Shown here in pieces: positions 58,666-64,000 of a DNA stretch of 64,000 nt (position 1 is its first letter; each line of letters begins with the position of its first letter). The notes under the pieces are model-generated. The model saw only the letters and a program-made list of their open reading frames with translations. It was not told the DNA's origin and did not search any database. The stretch lies in NCBI GenBank assembly GCA_945870425.1, contig CAMBSD010000014.1:28619-92618 (forward strand), given 5' to 3'. The stretch is from Chitinophaga pinensis. GTDB taxonomy: Bacteria; Bacteroidota; Bacteroidia; UKL13-3. Made by a program: the position numbers and the translations under genes.

Positions 58666-59451
58666 TTGTATCAGATAACGCATCTCTACATTTACCCTGT
58701 CAAATCATTGGGTGGAATTGCTTTAAAAGAGAGCAGGGTAGAGGCTCGCGGCTTACAATACGATAGACGATGGATGTTATGTGACGAGAACAACCAATTC
58801 ATTACCCAAAGAAAATTTGCTCAATTGGCATTATTCAAATTGAATCAAATAGATTCTGGCTTTCAAATTGAGTTTCAAGGCGAGTATTTTCAAATACCTT
58901 TTTCGATATCAGGAACTAGTATACAAGTAAAAGTGTGGGAAGATACTTGCGATGCCATCGAATATTTTGAAGCTTCTGCTTGGTTTTCAAAAATGCTATC
59001 CATTAGCTGTAAGCTTTGTTATATGCCCGATGAAAGCAAACGAATAGTGGATGAAAAATATGCAGGAAATAATCATATCAATAGCTTTAGCGATGGATTT
59101 CCAATTCTAATTGCTGGTCAGCAATCCCTTGATTTTTTAAACCAAAAGTTAAAACAACCCATTGATATCAATCGCTTCAGACCCAACATTGTGTTTGATG
59201 GTGGAAAGGCTTACGATGAAGATAGCTTCTCCATGTTTAGTATAAATGATGTGATATTCAAAGGCGTTAAGCCCTGTGCTAGGTGCCAAGTGATAGGCAT
59301 TGACCAAAATACTTCTACTGTAAACCTAGAACCCTTAAGTGTGTTATCGAGTTACCGCAATGTTGAGAATAAAGTGCTCTTTGGACAAAATGTAATTGTT
59401 CTAAAAGAAGATGGCTTGATTAAAGTGGGGCATCAATTGATGTTGCATTAG
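58666..59451 (+). CDS. MOSC domain (MOSC_N beta-barrel) protein
   Basis: ITHLYIYPVKSLGGIALKESRVEARGLQYDRRWMLCDENNQFITQRKFAQLA; RFRPNIVFDGGKAYDEDSF; CARCQVIGID. Confidence 0.92.
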   Translation: MYQITHLYIYPVKSLGGIALKESRVEARGLQYDRRWMLCDENNQFITQRKFAQLALFKLNQIDSGFQIEFQGEYFQIPFSISGTSIQVKVWEDTCDAIEYFEASAWFSKMLSISCKLCYMPDESKRIVDEKYAGNNHINSFSDGFPILIAGQQSLDFLNQKLKQPIDINRFRPNIVFDGGKAYDEDSFSMFSINDVIFKGVKPCARCQVIGIDQNTSTVNLEPLSVLSSYRNVENKVLFGQNVIVLKEDGLIKVGHQLMLH

Positions 59452-59526
59452 GATGGATACAAAAATATTTAGAGTGGATTGGTAAGGATACCAACAACGG
59501 ATAAAACAATAATCATTAACCACCAA

Positions 59527-59562
59527 ACGCTTTAGCGTATTCGTAATGCGCCATAGAGGCGC
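59527..59562. repeat. Two small adjacent hairpins (REP-like) at the left edge of the accessory array
   Basis: ACGCTttAGCGT (59527-59538) and GCGCCatagaGGCGC (59548-59562). Confidence 0.6.
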
Positions 59563-59593
59563 TATGTATAGCAAATGTGGATTTGGTTTTATT

Positions 59594-59672
59594 CTAACGG
59601 TTTCGGGCTTGGCGAAGGTGGTAATTTTCACCAAAGAATTCGAAAGCCCCCGTTTTGCTTGCAAGCTGTTAG
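59594..59672. repeat. Cassette-boundary repeat A (attC-like)
   Basis: CTAACGGTTTCGGGCTTGGCGAAGGTGG...AAGCTGTTAG; shares TAACGGTTTCGGGCTTGGCGAAGGTGG with repeat D; 3' of the PIN gene. Confidence 0.7.
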
Positions 59673-59683
59673 TTGCTGGTGGT

Positions 59684-60070
59684 TCATTTCCAGAACTGTT
59701 TTACTTTATAATTTTTAAACAATTTATCTCGAGTTATAACTACTAAATCTTCTGATATTGCTTGAGCTATAATAAGCCTGTCGAAAGGATCGTTATGATG
59801 CGTTGGTAAATTTGATAATTGTAAAAGATGTTCGTAGTTAATTGGTATTATCTCTATTTGATTTCGGTCTACAAATTCGAATAAATCTTTCAAAGAAATT
59901 CCAAGATCTAATTTACTATTTTGAAGTTTAATCGTTACTTCCCATAAACTTACGGCACTCAAAAAACAAGATTGATGAATATCTTTGATTATGCTTCTTG
60001 CCATTTCTGGCAGCTGTTTGTCGCCTGAAACAAACCATAATAAAGCGTGTGTGTCAAGTAAATATGCCAT
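59684..60070 (-). CDS. PIN domain toxin of type II TA (VapC-like)
   Basis: AYLLDTHALLWFVSGDKQLP...LSAVSLWEVTIKLQ...HHNDPFDRLIIAQAISEDLVVITRDKLFKNY. Confidence 0.92.
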   Translation of the reverse strand: MAYLLDTHALLWFVSGDKQLPEMARSIIKDIHQSCFLSAVSLWEVTIKLQNSKLDLGISLKDLFEFVDRNQIEIIPINYEHLLQLSNLPTHHNDPFDRLIIAQAISEDLVVITRDKLFKNYKVKQFWK

Positions 60071-60279
60071 TACATATAATCCTTAAACTCGTCCAAAGGT
60101 TCATCAAAATCTGGCGAAAGGATAATTTTACCTTTGGCAAATCCGAATTCACGTTCTTTAAGCTTTGGTTTAGACTTTGATTTACTTTTCTTCTTAAGAA
60201 ACTCAACAAAGTCAGCTACTTCAGCTCGTAATTCTTTTGGCAAAGAATTGATTTCAAACTTTAAGGTTGTATTTGTCAT
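60070..60279 (-). CDS. DUF2281 family antitoxin
   Basis: INSLPKELRAEVADFVEFLKKKSKSK...REFGFAKGKIILSPDFDEPLDEFKDYM; overlaps toxin by 1 nt. Confidence 0.88.
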   Translation of the reverse strand: MTNTTLKFEINSLPKELRAEVADFVEFLKKKSKSKSKPKLKEREFGFAKGKIILSPDFDEPLDEFKDYM

Positions 60280-60350
60280 AAAGCAAATTTAAAGAAATTG
60301 CTCGTCCTTTCAAACCAGGCTATGATTTTTGTGTCGATGTCCACTTGCAC

Positions 60351-60515
60351 CTAACGTTTTGAAGATTGGCGAAGGGCGGTCTTTTCAGCATCCCGATTGC
60401 TATCGGGATTTGTTCGGAGCACAAAAATTTCTGCTACCACAAAACTGTCTGCGGAGTATAGCCTATCCCGATTTTTCATCGGTAAAATCCCGCCTATTGC
60501 CAATATGCTGTCTGG
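60351..60515. repeat. Cassette-boundary repeat B (attC-like)
   Basis: CTAACGTTTTGAAGATTGGCGAAGGGCGG...CATCCCGATTGCTATCGGGATT...TCTGCGGAG...CCCGCCTATTGCCAATATGCTGT; strongly similar to repeat C. Confidence 0.85.
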
Positions 60516-60521
60516 CCGACT

Positions 60522-60935
60522 TTATAGTTTAATACATAATTCATCAGGTGTCATAACGAGTATTTCACAGTCTTTGAAGTCTTTGGTATTACGAGTAACT
60601 ATGCAGTCTATTTTTGCTATAGATGATGCACATAATACTTGAATAGCATCTTCAAAGTCCTTATGTTTAGAACGTAGTCCCTTTTTTAAAACATCGATGT
60701 CTACTGGTACAACAGTTAAATAGTCAAGCAGATTATATAAAACTTCACGTAAAGGTTTTTCTTCAAGATATTTTTTTAATAAGTAGTGTGTCGTAGCTAT
60801 TGAATGAGAAGAAGTAAATATTTCAATTTTCTTTTCTTCAGCTTTGTTAAATATTTCAATAGCATATTTACTAAAAGGTCTTCTATCTGCGATTAGGTCA
60901 ACAATTATATTAGTGTCAAGAAATACCTTTTTCAT
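60522..60935 (-). CDS. PIN domain protein (type II TA toxin)
   Basis: KVFLDTNIIVDLIADRRPFSKYAIEIFNKAEEKKIEIFTSSHSIATTHYLLKK...DFEDAIQVLCASSIAKIDCIVTRNTKDFKDCEI. Confidence 0.9.
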   Translation of the reverse strand: MKKVFLDTNIIVDLIADRRPFSKYAIEIFNKAEEKKIEIFTSSHSIATTHYLLKKYLEEKPLREVLYNLLDYLTVVPVDIDVLKKGLRSKHKDFEDAIQVLCASSIAKIDCIVTRNTKDFKDCEILVMTPDELCIKL

Positions 60936-61174
60936 AAGTGCTTTTTTTCTAAATAAGAACGTAATTCTTTCTTTTCGTCAAAGTTCTTTGGAAGTTTAAC
61001 CGCACCAACAATTTTCTTAAGTTTAGGTGATAGTTGGTCTTCTCCACTTTCTTGAGTTATTGTCTCCAAATAATTTTCAATAAGTTCAGATAAACTTCTT
61101 CCGGTGTTTTTGGCGTATGATTTTGCCCTTTCTATAATTGACTTTTCTACTGTCAAGGTTAGTTTAGTTGTCAT
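60932..61174 (-). CDS. Antitoxin, DUF6364-like ribbon-helix-helix
   Basis: MTTKLTLTVEKSIIERAKSYAKNTGRSLSELIENYLETIT; 4-nt overlap with the PIN gene; start chosen at MTTKL. Confidence 0.82.
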   Translation of the reverse strand: MTTKLTLTVEKSIIERAKSYAKNTGRSLSELIENYLETITQESGEDQLSPKLKKIVGAVKLPKNFDEKKELRSYLEKKHL

Positions 61175-61234
61175 GATACGTATATTTTTCACAAAGGTAC
61201 GTATTTGGTGTTAGAATTCCAAATCGGTTTGCCT

Positions 61235-61400
61235 ATAACGGTTTGCCGCTTGGCGAAGGGCGGGACTTTCAGCATCCCGATTGCTATCGGGATTGATGCG
61301 GAGACTTGCACTTTCGGCTACCACAAAACTATCTGCGGAGTAAAGCCTATCCCGATTTTTCATCGGGAAAACCCCGCCTATTGACAAGGTGCTGTTACCT
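61235..61400. repeat. Cassette-boundary repeat C (attC-like)
   Basis: ATAACGGTTTGCCGCTTGGCGAAGGGCGGGACTTTCAGCATCCCGATTGCTATCGGGATTGATGCGGAG...CTATCTGCGGAG...CCCCGCCTATTGACAAGGTGCTGTTACC. Confidence 0.88.
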
Positions 61401-61412
61401 GCTGCCGTTCCT

Positions 61413-62039
61413 TTACTGTCCTGCGAAAATATTGTCGGTATTAGCATAAATTATTTTTACTTTTGTCCCTATTGCAAGTTTACTGTTGTCTTGAACAAAA
61501 CGAATAAGTCGTTTACTTTGTCTACCCATAAATCTATTCCAATAAACAATTACAATATAGTCATAACTGTCATTTAAAAGTTTTGTAGTCTGAGATAGCG
61601 GTTTTAAATATTTTAGCTGAGTTTCAATAGATAAAATACTGTCAATTGGTGCTTGTTGCTTTGTTGGAAAAGTTGTCATTATTTCATTTCTGTCCCATTT
61701 TAAATTAGGAAAACCGCCAGCATAACAATTTACTTGGAATGAAGTCAACTGTCCTGATTTGTCATAGTAAAGAACTTGTAATGGTTGGTAGTGATTTTTT
61801 ATTTGTGAATTATATTTAGTCGTGTCAAGTGAGAATAGATATGAAAAATAAGTTGTGTCAAGTTCGTAACAGTCAGCATTAGTAATGTTATATTTTTTAG
61901 CATATTGAACAATGGTCTTTTCGTCAACAGTATTTGTTTTTTTCATTCCATAAAGTCCTGTGAAAATTGAAGAACAACTTGTCAGTCCAAATGAGAATGT
62001 CAAAGTTATAACTATCAATATTGATAAATGTCTGTTCAT
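61413..62039 (-). CDS. Cassette-borne lipoprotein, hypothetical
   Basis: MNRHLSILIVITLTFSFGLTSCSSIFTG lipobox; 208 aa ORF between repeats C and D. Confidence 0.75.
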   Translation of the reverse strand: MNRHLSILIVITLTFSFGLTSCSSIFTGLYGMKKTNTVDEKTIVQYAKKYNITNADCYELDTTYFSYLFSLDTTKYNSQIKNHYQPLQVLYYDKSGQLTSFQVNCYAGGFPNLKWDRNEIMTTFPTKQQAPIDSILSIETQLKYLKPLSQTTKLLNDSYDYIVIVYWNRFMGRQSKRLIRFVQDNSKLAIGTKVKIIYANTDNIFAGQ

Positions 62040-62062
62040 TGTATGGTCTTTTACGGTTGCTT

Positions 62063-62193
62063 GTAACGGTTTCGGGCTTGGCGAAGGTGGCGATTTTCAC
62101 CACAAATGTTGATGCGGAGAACCAAACTTTGATTAACCTCAAATGTGTCTGCGGAGCACTGAACCGCCACTTTTGCCAAACCCGTGTTATGCC
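62063..62193. repeat. Cassette-boundary repeat D (attC-like)
   Basis: GTAACGGTTTCGGGCTTGGCGAAGGTGGCG...GATGCGGAG...TCTGCGGAG...CCGCCACTTTTGCCAAACCCGTGTTATGCC. Confidence 0.85.
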
Positions 62194-62343
62194 TTCGTTG
62201 CTTTTTTTTCAAGGTGTCTGCTAGCAATTGGTAAATTATTAACTGTCATTGTAATTAAAAAGGATATGCACAATTTATTTATTGGCAATAGCTTATAGGT
62301 GTCATTAAACTTTGATTTGTAATTAAATAACTATTGGTTTCAA

Positions 62344-62391
62344 TAAAAAAAATTCAGAGGATGTTAGTGTTTGTGACAATATCCTCTGAAT
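62344..62391 (-). terminator. Rho-independent terminator of the 62429-63998 operon (minus strand)
   Basis: ATTCAGAGGAT-18 nt-ATCCTCTGAAT followed on the minus strand by a T tract (ATTTTTTTTATTG). Confidence 0.8.
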
Positions 62392-62428
62392 GTAACTAAG
62401 TGCAATAAAAGTATTGATTATTTTTAAA

Positions 62429-62887
62429 TTAATTGTTCATCTTCATTTTATTATTTAATGCCCTTGCTATGCTTTTCATATGGTCTCTCATTATTCTATC
62501 CACGTAAATAATGTCACCCAAACAAACAAGTCCAGCTGTAGTTAAAATGATAATTGGAATTGTTGAATTACCATTTGACAAATTACTGGAACCAAAACCC
62601 AAGGCTAAACCGGCTATTATAGAATTAATTGACCCTACAATTCCAAGGTTATCTATTTTTTTTAAGTGATATTTTGCTTCATCATTTCCTTCAGAAAGAC
62701 GCCTTATTTCACTCCATTTAACAGGTTTGTCATTTTTAAAAAACTTTAAATTGTTAATTCCAGTTCGTTTCAGATAAATGGAATCATATGAATAATTTTG
62801 AGAATAAAGATGAGATGATGAAAAGCAAACTATTATAAAAACTAACAAATTGCGGCTGTGAAAAGTTAAATTGAAATTAGTATTCAT
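62429..62887 (-). CDS. Membrane hypothetical protein (start chosen at MNTNFN)
   Basis: Signal peptide, TM segments GIVGSINSIIAGLALGFG and IPIIILTTAGLVCLGDIIYVDRIM; starts 7 nt after the upstream stop. Confidence 0.65.
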   Translation of the reverse strand: MNTNFNLTFHSRNLLVFIIVCFSSSHLYSQNYSYDSIYLKRTGINNLKFFKNDKPVKWSEIRRLSEGNDEAKYHLKKIDNLGIVGSINSIIAGLALGFGSSNLSNGNSTIPIIILTTAGLVCLGDIIYVDRIMRDHMKSIARALNNKMKMNN

Positions 62888-62894
62888 AATTTCC

Positions 62895-63971
62895 CTATTT
62901 AACACATTTAATATATAAGCCATTTTTATAAACAAATGCTTGTCCGCCAGAAGGAATTGGGTAGTAACAATGGGCACCGTCCCAAGTCCCTTGAGTAAAT
63001 AATCCATTCCAAATTGGTAGTTTGCATTGATGTGAAGGGTCATCCCAATAAAGATTTCCATTCATTATAAAAACACTTCCACTTGTTGGTCTTCCAAAAA
63101 AGCAACTTGCACCATCGAATTGACTTGGAAGTGGGCAATTATTACAAAAATATGGATTCCATGGATTAGGTCCGCCACAACCTGAACACATATTACAAAA
63201 TCTACAACTACTTGTAGTGGATACAGCTATCGCTGTCGCAACACTTACAATAGGAGCAGCGGGACCACTAAAAAATATGCCGAAAATAGCACTTACCGCA
63301 TCCATACCAGCAATTTTCCATAAGTTGTTCTTTAAGCAATCATCACAATCGTTATTTGTTTTATGTAAATTTTTAAGGGTCTTTTGATAACCATTCCAAT
63401 ATGTTGCACTTTCTTTAAAAGTTGTAACAGAATACATGCTAATGACTTTACTATTATAGTTGATATTTCCATCATTTGAAATGTTGATTTGTAGTTGAGC
63501 TAATTCAGCTATTTTTTGGTCAAAAGAAACTCCCTCGTTTGAAATATCTATTGCTTGATTTAAATAGTTTTTTGTTGCTTCATCAATAATGTTATTTGTT
63601 AGTAGTTGTTGAACTAGATTAGTAAGATTATCAGTATCATAATTTGTGTAGAAATTTTGAACGTCTTCAGGCGTGAAATTTAAGCTATTTGTGTCTATAT
63701 TGTTTATTAGACAAAAAGACTTTGATAATAGTACCTTTTGGTATAAATTTAGACTATCTTGGTCTGGATAGTTCATTACATAATCTACACCATCATTGTG
63801 TAATTGTGCAAATAATTCAGCCTGCTCAATTAAACTGTCATTTGTTGATTTAGATTGTACTTTGTTTGACTTTGTATTGCAACTATTCATTGTTACGAAC
63901 AGAGTCAAAATTGTAAAAATTGTAAGGATAAATTTTCCTAAAATTTTTGATGGATTGTTTAATTTTTTCAT
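62895..63971 (-). CDS. Cys-rich lipoprotein with hydrophobic Gly/Ala segment and duplicated C-terminal DGAxC motif
   Basis: Lipobox TMNSCNT; AVSAIFGIFFSGPAAPIVSVATAIAVSTTSSCRFCNMCSGCGGPNPWNPYFCNNCP; QFDGASCFFGRPTSGSVFIMNGNLYW / TWDGAHCYYPIPSGGQAFVYKNGLYI. Confidence 0.75.
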   Translation of the reverse strand: MKKLNNPSKILGKFILTIFTILTLFVTMNSCNTKSNKVQSKSTNDSLIEQAELFAQLHNDGVDYVMNYPDQDSLNLYQKVLLSKSFCLINNIDTNSLNFTPEDVQNFYTNYDTDNLTNLVQQLLTNNIIDEATKNYLNQAIDISNEGVSFDQKIAELAQLQINISNDGNINYNSKVISMYSVTTFKESATYWNGYQKTLKNLHKTNNDCDDCLKNNLWKIAGMDAVSAIFGIFFSGPAAPIVSVATAIAVSTTSSCRFCNMCSGCGGPNPWNPYFCNNCPLPSQFDGASCFFGRPTSGSVFIMNGNLYWDDPSHQCKLPIWNGLFTQGTWDGAHCYYPIPSGGQAFVYKNGLYIKCVK

Positions 63972-64000
63972 GTTGTTAGTGAGGTTTTTGAAAGTCAAAT

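Follow-up and report, generated by a model that had tools for sequence, protein, structure and literature searches.

Sedentary chromosomal integrons (IntI, attI and attC) possess an integrase beside an attI site and tandem, hairpin-ended cassettes that mostly hold one gene or operon each, read in one direction and include toxin-antitoxin and restriction-modification cargo; in all these respects they resemble the arrays described here. An insertion forming an additional domain is the defining feature of the integron integrase IntI (PMC9668308), and the contacts of IntI with the second extrahelical base include the I2 helix of this insertion (PMC3053210). In the 'reverse integron' of Treponema denticola (PMC7691350), integrase and cassettes lie in the same direction, as they do in our system. 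Clusters of attC sites lacking an integrase are termed CALINs, and integrons have been reported to be rare in Bacteroidota, for which IntegronFinder 2 gives In0 elements and, as the single complete integron, one from Salinibacter (PMC9024848). Members of an integron-like subgroup of tyrosine recombinases that are devoid of the insertion are not known, from the description of that subgroup, to be tied to cassette arrays or to attI (PMC8138268). A literature search for attC-like sites together with Bacteroid- names returned no paper, and one for integron-like elements together with Bacteroidota only a general review; both covered neither preprints nor most subscription papers, and a prior description of the system is possible.

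We analysed a window of 64,000 nucleotides, the whole stretch of Chitinophaga DNA under study, together with related genomes. From sequence patterns we infer with high confidence that the repeats in this window serve an integron-type cassette system of Bacteroidota as its recombination sites.

Repeats and cassettes of the window

Four repeats, A to D, had been noticed in a preliminary description of this DNA and are found where it placed them, all on one strand. With exact TAAC..GTTA bounds as limits, they occupy 59595-59671 (A), 60352-60511 (B), 61236-61397 (C) and 62064-62189 (D) of the minus strand. Sites A, B and C lie a few bp beyond the 3' ends of minus-strand genes, and the array leaves the window at its right edge, both as described before; contig C14 (92,618 bp) ends at the same position, hence the array has been cut by the assembly. 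Site A is a shortened copy and, as the array's last site, stands at the chromosomal edge. Site B is degraded on its TAAC side and shares 83% identity with C over 167 nt, and D is of the type that has copies of up to 99% identity throughout the class. The window genome carries further copies of the repeat on contigs C38, C20, C16 and C29. A typical site is a hairpin of roughly 126 nt that follows the ORF or operon of each cassette and reads, on the minus strand and thus in gene orientation, TAAC-A-[4 nt]-TTTGGC..AAAA..GTGGCG ... CGCCAC..CTTC..GCCAAG-[4 nt]-AAANC-G^TTA. An Rfam search of the repeat region gave no meaningful match.

With limits set from the G^TT of neighbouring sites, the window array comprises three complete cassettes on the minus strand, namely two PIN toxin-antitoxin pairs and one lipoprotein-like gene. 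Cassette 1 (828 bp, 61239-62066) holds the lipoprotein-like ORF 61413-62039, which has no Pfam match, and ends with site C. According to Pfam, cassette 2 (884 bp, 60355-61238, ending with site B) encodes a PIN_3 toxin (60522-60935) and a DUF6364 partner (60932-61192), and cassette 3 (757 bp, 59598-60354, ending with site A) a PIN toxin (59684-60070) and a DUF2281 partner (60070-60279). The remainder on this strand (62067-64000, with ORFs 62429-63061 and 62895-63968, ending with site D) represents one or more incomplete cassettes cut by the contig end. A MOSC-domain gene on the plus strand (58666-59451) belongs to the chromosomal flank past the last site and lies outside the array.

The congener G001 shares 98.4% identity over 1.8 kb of chromosome up to position 59591, just short of site A, and continues from there with a different last site and a different cassette. 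The block 60512-61397, containing the genes of the second toxin-antitoxin pair (TA2) and site C, is present in G001 at 95% identity and is followed there by a different site. This is array turnover at the expected edge: the strain comparison called for in the preliminary description showed that one chromosomal edge is followed by different cassettes in the two genomes, in a pattern from which no clean gain of a single cassette could be isolated.

A stretch of 75 bp beside the far edge of the array (59517-59591) has copies of 81-84% identity at other array edges in congeners (L491 2101-2169, L493 1551-1635, L494 2580-2664), and in L494 it occurs once without a cassette, as TTTTTTCACACTCTGAC joined to GTTAGCTTAAAAC. 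It is possibly a secondary target site.

The cassette as the covarying unit

For 98 cassettes located between adjacent sites, the bases after GTT were compared with the last bases before the cassette's own site. At positions 2-9, the two ends of a cassette were complementary at 5.36 of 8 positions, against 2.64 after random re-pairing (sd 0.13; maximum of 1000 re-pairings 3.06), whereas the two sides of one in-array site reached 2.72 against a null of 2.46, which is near chance. The ends that covary are typically 0.5-5 kb apart. Since the own ends of a cassette pair and the sides of one site barely do so, circular cassettes and not the repeats are presumably the units of the system; such covariation is expected if the two ends meet in a circular molecule and have to pair in it. 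Cassettes start with G^TTANNN, and their own ends are complementary over 15-16 nt, interrupted at position 8 by a fixed mismatch, in which the starting end has A and the terminal end C, and which reads T.G on the bottom strand. This conserved pairing of 15-16 nt is much longer than the boxes noted in the preliminary description, and it connects the two ends of one cassette and does not lie within one repeat. Inside the site, a 4-nt inner arm covaries as well, with 266 of 506 exact complements against 55 after shuffling and at least 15 types of pair, so that the palindromic folding with covarying arms that characterises canonical attC sites is also found here. In canonical attC sites, only the bottom strand takes part in recombination; here, the bottom strand was slightly more stable than the top strand in 93 of 150 cases, a set selected for complementary cassette ends. 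In an illustrative comparison of circular and linear folds, again with cassettes chosen for complementary ends, in-array sites folded less well because the neighbouring ends are mostly unpaired there. Own-end pairing is retained in decayed form in two of the three window cassettes and is absent from the TA2 cassette, owing to the degraded site B.

Cassette ORFs of at least 80 aa in cellular loci nearly always end toward their site (220/230), and the median cassette in these loci measures 835 bp. The cargo is mixed and includes PIN toxin-antitoxin modules, a restriction enzyme, methylases, GmrSD-type enzymes, HTH regulators, dehydrogenases, acetyltransferases, transporters, a lipocalin and others. 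Tandem cassettes in one orientation, each ending in a recombination site, as known from integron architecture, are thus present.

These data bear on the possibility that the repeats form a REP/MITE-type family, mobilised by an enzyme such as a Y1 transposase and located after genes by chance. Near-identical hairpin repeats with sharp TAAC..GTTA limits in many genomes would agree with such a family, but the flanks of one repeat neither pair nor duplicate, the ends of cassettes do pair, and the arrays keep to a single orientation and begin at an integrase. We therefore consider a REP/MITE origin highly improbable, and the test that the preliminary description had proposed for it turned out against it. 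The repeat itself as the mobile unit, inserted in both orientations, was rejected in view of cassette-end pairing and uniform orientation, the end pairing by itself largely refuting a REP/MITE family.

A tyrosine recombinase and an attI site at the array head in relatives

No integrase had been visible beside the array, and this holds for the entire window genome: searches with PF00589 and with a family profile revealed no array-type recombinase, the PF00589 profile detecting only XerC, XerD and one unrelated recombinase of 407 aa. Other array-bearing genomes have an additional tyrosine recombinase at the head of the array. A profile built from six array integrases found one, usually in single copy, in 92 of 149 relatives; G002 and G003, both congeners, have it, and the window genome does not. 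A second profile found a family member in 108 of the 397 genomes that were taken from the phylum Bacteroidota. Co-occurrence of integrase and repeat across genomes is moderate (67/27/25/30, p = 0.0016, kinship uncorrected). Within 1.5 kb, sites were present at 8 of 37 array-type loci as compared to none of 23 control recombinase loci. Contigs broke within 600 bp of the integrase in 13 of 44 cases on its 3' side versus 1 of 44 on its 5' side, an excess that is expected if a repetitive array follows there.

Among 66 distinct integrase copies, 84 of 94 downstream sites were on the integrase strand and all 22 upstream sites on the opposite strand, meaning that the arrays run away from the enzyme; the ten wrong-way downstream sites are confined to three loci. 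The start of the first cassette could be placed in 17 loci and lies 7-105 bp past the integrase stop codon, in eleven of them at 94-105 bp. A motif, TA[TC][AT]N4AGTT[AG], follows the integrase in 32 of 42 loci at a median distance of 101 bp and occurs in 1% of random stretches. The corresponding attI, situated some 100 bp beyond the stop codon, usually consists of a stem-loop and then TATANNNNA^GTTA and has an 11+6+11-like core with inverted arms; this position past the integrase stop distinguishes it from the attI of IntI integrons. The arrangement of integrons, with attI and a linked integrase heading the array, is hence found in relatives and not in the window's own genome. Loci without the motif belong mostly to one integrase subclade. 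Three loci of this subclade (L057, L449, L480) have sites upstream and divergent and no attI motif after the gene, which is either the usual integron orientation or a matter of unrelated neighbours. Family integrases beside sites also occur in virus-labelled IMG/VR contigs (L288 4168-5013 plus strand, L289 4735-5562 plus strand, L327 9459-10253 minus strand), and two of these three form a branch of their own.

The Xer-using CTX phage employs a folded single strand as its recombination site, a feature that we propose for the present cassettes too, although here the cassettes are arrayed and are accompanied by a dedicated enzyme and attI. Host XerC/XerD could move the cassettes on folded single strands, as in the integration of that phage. 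The window genome contains both proteins and no dedicated integrase, and the core of attI with its inverted arms would suit them; the likely chromosomal dif (TACCTATAATTTATATTATGTTAA), however, is unlike attI, no site is located near any Xer gene, and a separate integrase is linked to the arrays in relatives, so that we give host Xer recombination a very small probability. A Xer/dif-using element was also considered and rejected, as the core site does not resemble chromosomal dif.

Relation to integron integrases and attC sites

The array integrases contain the Pfam domains Phage_int_SAM_4 and Phage_integrase. The model of the integron integrase, TIGR02249, scored 172-223 bits, below its cut-off of 265, with the match divided into two stretches. 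Likewise, the PDB match to VchIntIA (2A3V) is broken, skipping chain residues of about 181-242, a segment to which only some 20 residues of the query correspond. The two catalytic motifs are 59-74 aa apart (median 65) as compared to 107 in IntI, and the IntI-specific insertion is not found in the array integrases. In a quick tree, IntI, XerC and XerD formed one clade each, 41 attI-type integrases grouped in one clade (SH-aLRT 98) apart from IntI, and IntI together with all array-type integrases split from XerD (99). The predicted structure of the integrase (11-row model, pLDDT 79; a single-sequence prediction with pLDDT 41 was set aside) is nearest to XerA and to an integron integrase.

The 7-nt canonical boxes that the preliminary description had read in site D do not hold for the site family: of 503 sites, only 2 agree with RYYYAAC and GTTRRRY at once (consensus as in PMC3053210), and each box occurs near chance. 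Where IntI integrons have a 7-nt box, the cassettes described here have the end pairing of 15-16 nt with its fixed mismatch. An ordinary integron or CALIN, in which attC and IntI are of the classical type and the integrase gene is located elsewhere or has been lost, would account for the shared layout of integrase, attI and cassettes and for the IntI-like character of the array integrase, and the presence of a canonical, though truncated, IntI in one relative also speaks for it. Against it stand the aberrant sites and the array-linked integrases, which lack the insertion and are separate from the IntI clade. A canonical IntI above the cut-off was detected in only one of the 149 relatives, in truncated form, and not in the window genome; we thus regard an ordinary integron as improbable. 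This single truncated gene is located at L104 1388-2209 on the plus strand (G045:C58).

Distribution of the site family

With site D as query, matches were obtained in 94 of 149 relatives, many of 94-99% identity over exactly TAAC..GTTA; they extend to other genera and families of the same class and have different flanks. Recurrence of D in full length at such identity in dozens of genomes excludes that the repeats are due to chance. An exact-pattern scan of GTDB genomes found at least 119 stretches, and nearly all of the matches listed were from Bacteroidota (Flavobacterium, Pedobacter, Chitinophaga, Chryseobacterium, Algoriphagus and others, including a complete UKL13-3 genome); Ignavibacteriales, Chlorobaculum and one Staskawiczbacteria MAG were the names of other type among the matches listed. 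In the first 0.94 Mb of neighbourhoods, a repeat profile located 191 sites in arrays of up to ten, their orientation being nearly always uniform per contig. Collections of plasmids and phage isolates gave no match to the repeat. A distant family integrase with a site is present on a CPR-labelled contig of a Candidatus Staskawiczbacteria MAG (L129 1612-2622, minus strand), indicating either a binning error or a transfer outside Bacteroidota.

Several virus-labelled IMG/VR contigs (L242, L252, L282, L297, L317, which also encodes a terminase, and L328) use the sites in the reverse sense. In virus-labelled contigs, 88 of 162 sites had an ATG-initiated ORF of at least 75 aa starting inside the site, and 15 of 315 sites in cellular loci did so. 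The virus-type ORFs start at a median of 47 nt into the site and read out through its TAAC side, so that methyltransferases and other proteins take their N-terminal residues (FCQTRVSGS, FAKPVLGAVP) from the site.

Discussion

The preliminary description had left a choice between a CALIN or integron and an integron-analogous cassette system. That the locus is a cassette array is strongly supported by the covarying ends, the uniform gene orientation, the linked integrase and attI in relatives and the changed cassettes in a congener. The analogous alternative fits best, with sites that depart from the canonical attC consensus and an integrase devoid of the IntI insertion; the system is kept apart from the IntI/attC integrons, as tests for two of their defining features found neither. 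We read it, on the strength of sequence comparison, as a patch-less, reverse-oriented integron class of Bacteroidota. The window array is probably CALIN-like, since its own genome is without such a recombinase, which is missing or unassembled there. Like a CALIN, it has no linked integrase in its genome; it differs in that its sites are not canonical attC sites and that the contig is cut.

The following mechanism is proposed. The recombinase would excise cassettes as circles, in line with the covariation of their own ends. One strand of the circle would fold, and the paired ends (R arm) together with the inner arm TTGGC/GCCAA and its four covarying nucleotides would restore a core site with two arms that flank an asymmetric spacer. 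The folded cassette site would then be joined to the double-stranded attI at G^TT. The spacer and the fixed mismatch may determine which strand is chosen and would then substitute for the IntI insertion. The array of the window would be a CALIN-like remnant that is mobile only if the enzyme is supplied, given that the recombinase is missing or unassembled in its genome.

There is, in our estimation, an even chance that Bacteroidota and their phages harbour a second integron class, in which the IntI insertion was either never part of the integrase or lost from it, strand polarity is read from long covarying arms with a fixed mismatch, and phages reuse the sites as donors of start codons for swappable genes. 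If so, the capture of cassettes from folded single strands would not need the IntI patch. The system also offers a way to test how folded single-stranded sites are processed by an integrase that does not possess the part regarded as essential, and how integrons arose from Xer-like enzymes. Both the enzyme and its sites are outside the standard models, and the integrase is present in 92/149 relatives and 108/397 genomes of the phylum. If these arrays recombine, they would constitute a large unseen route for the swapping of accessory genes, including restriction-modification and toxin-antitoxin genes.
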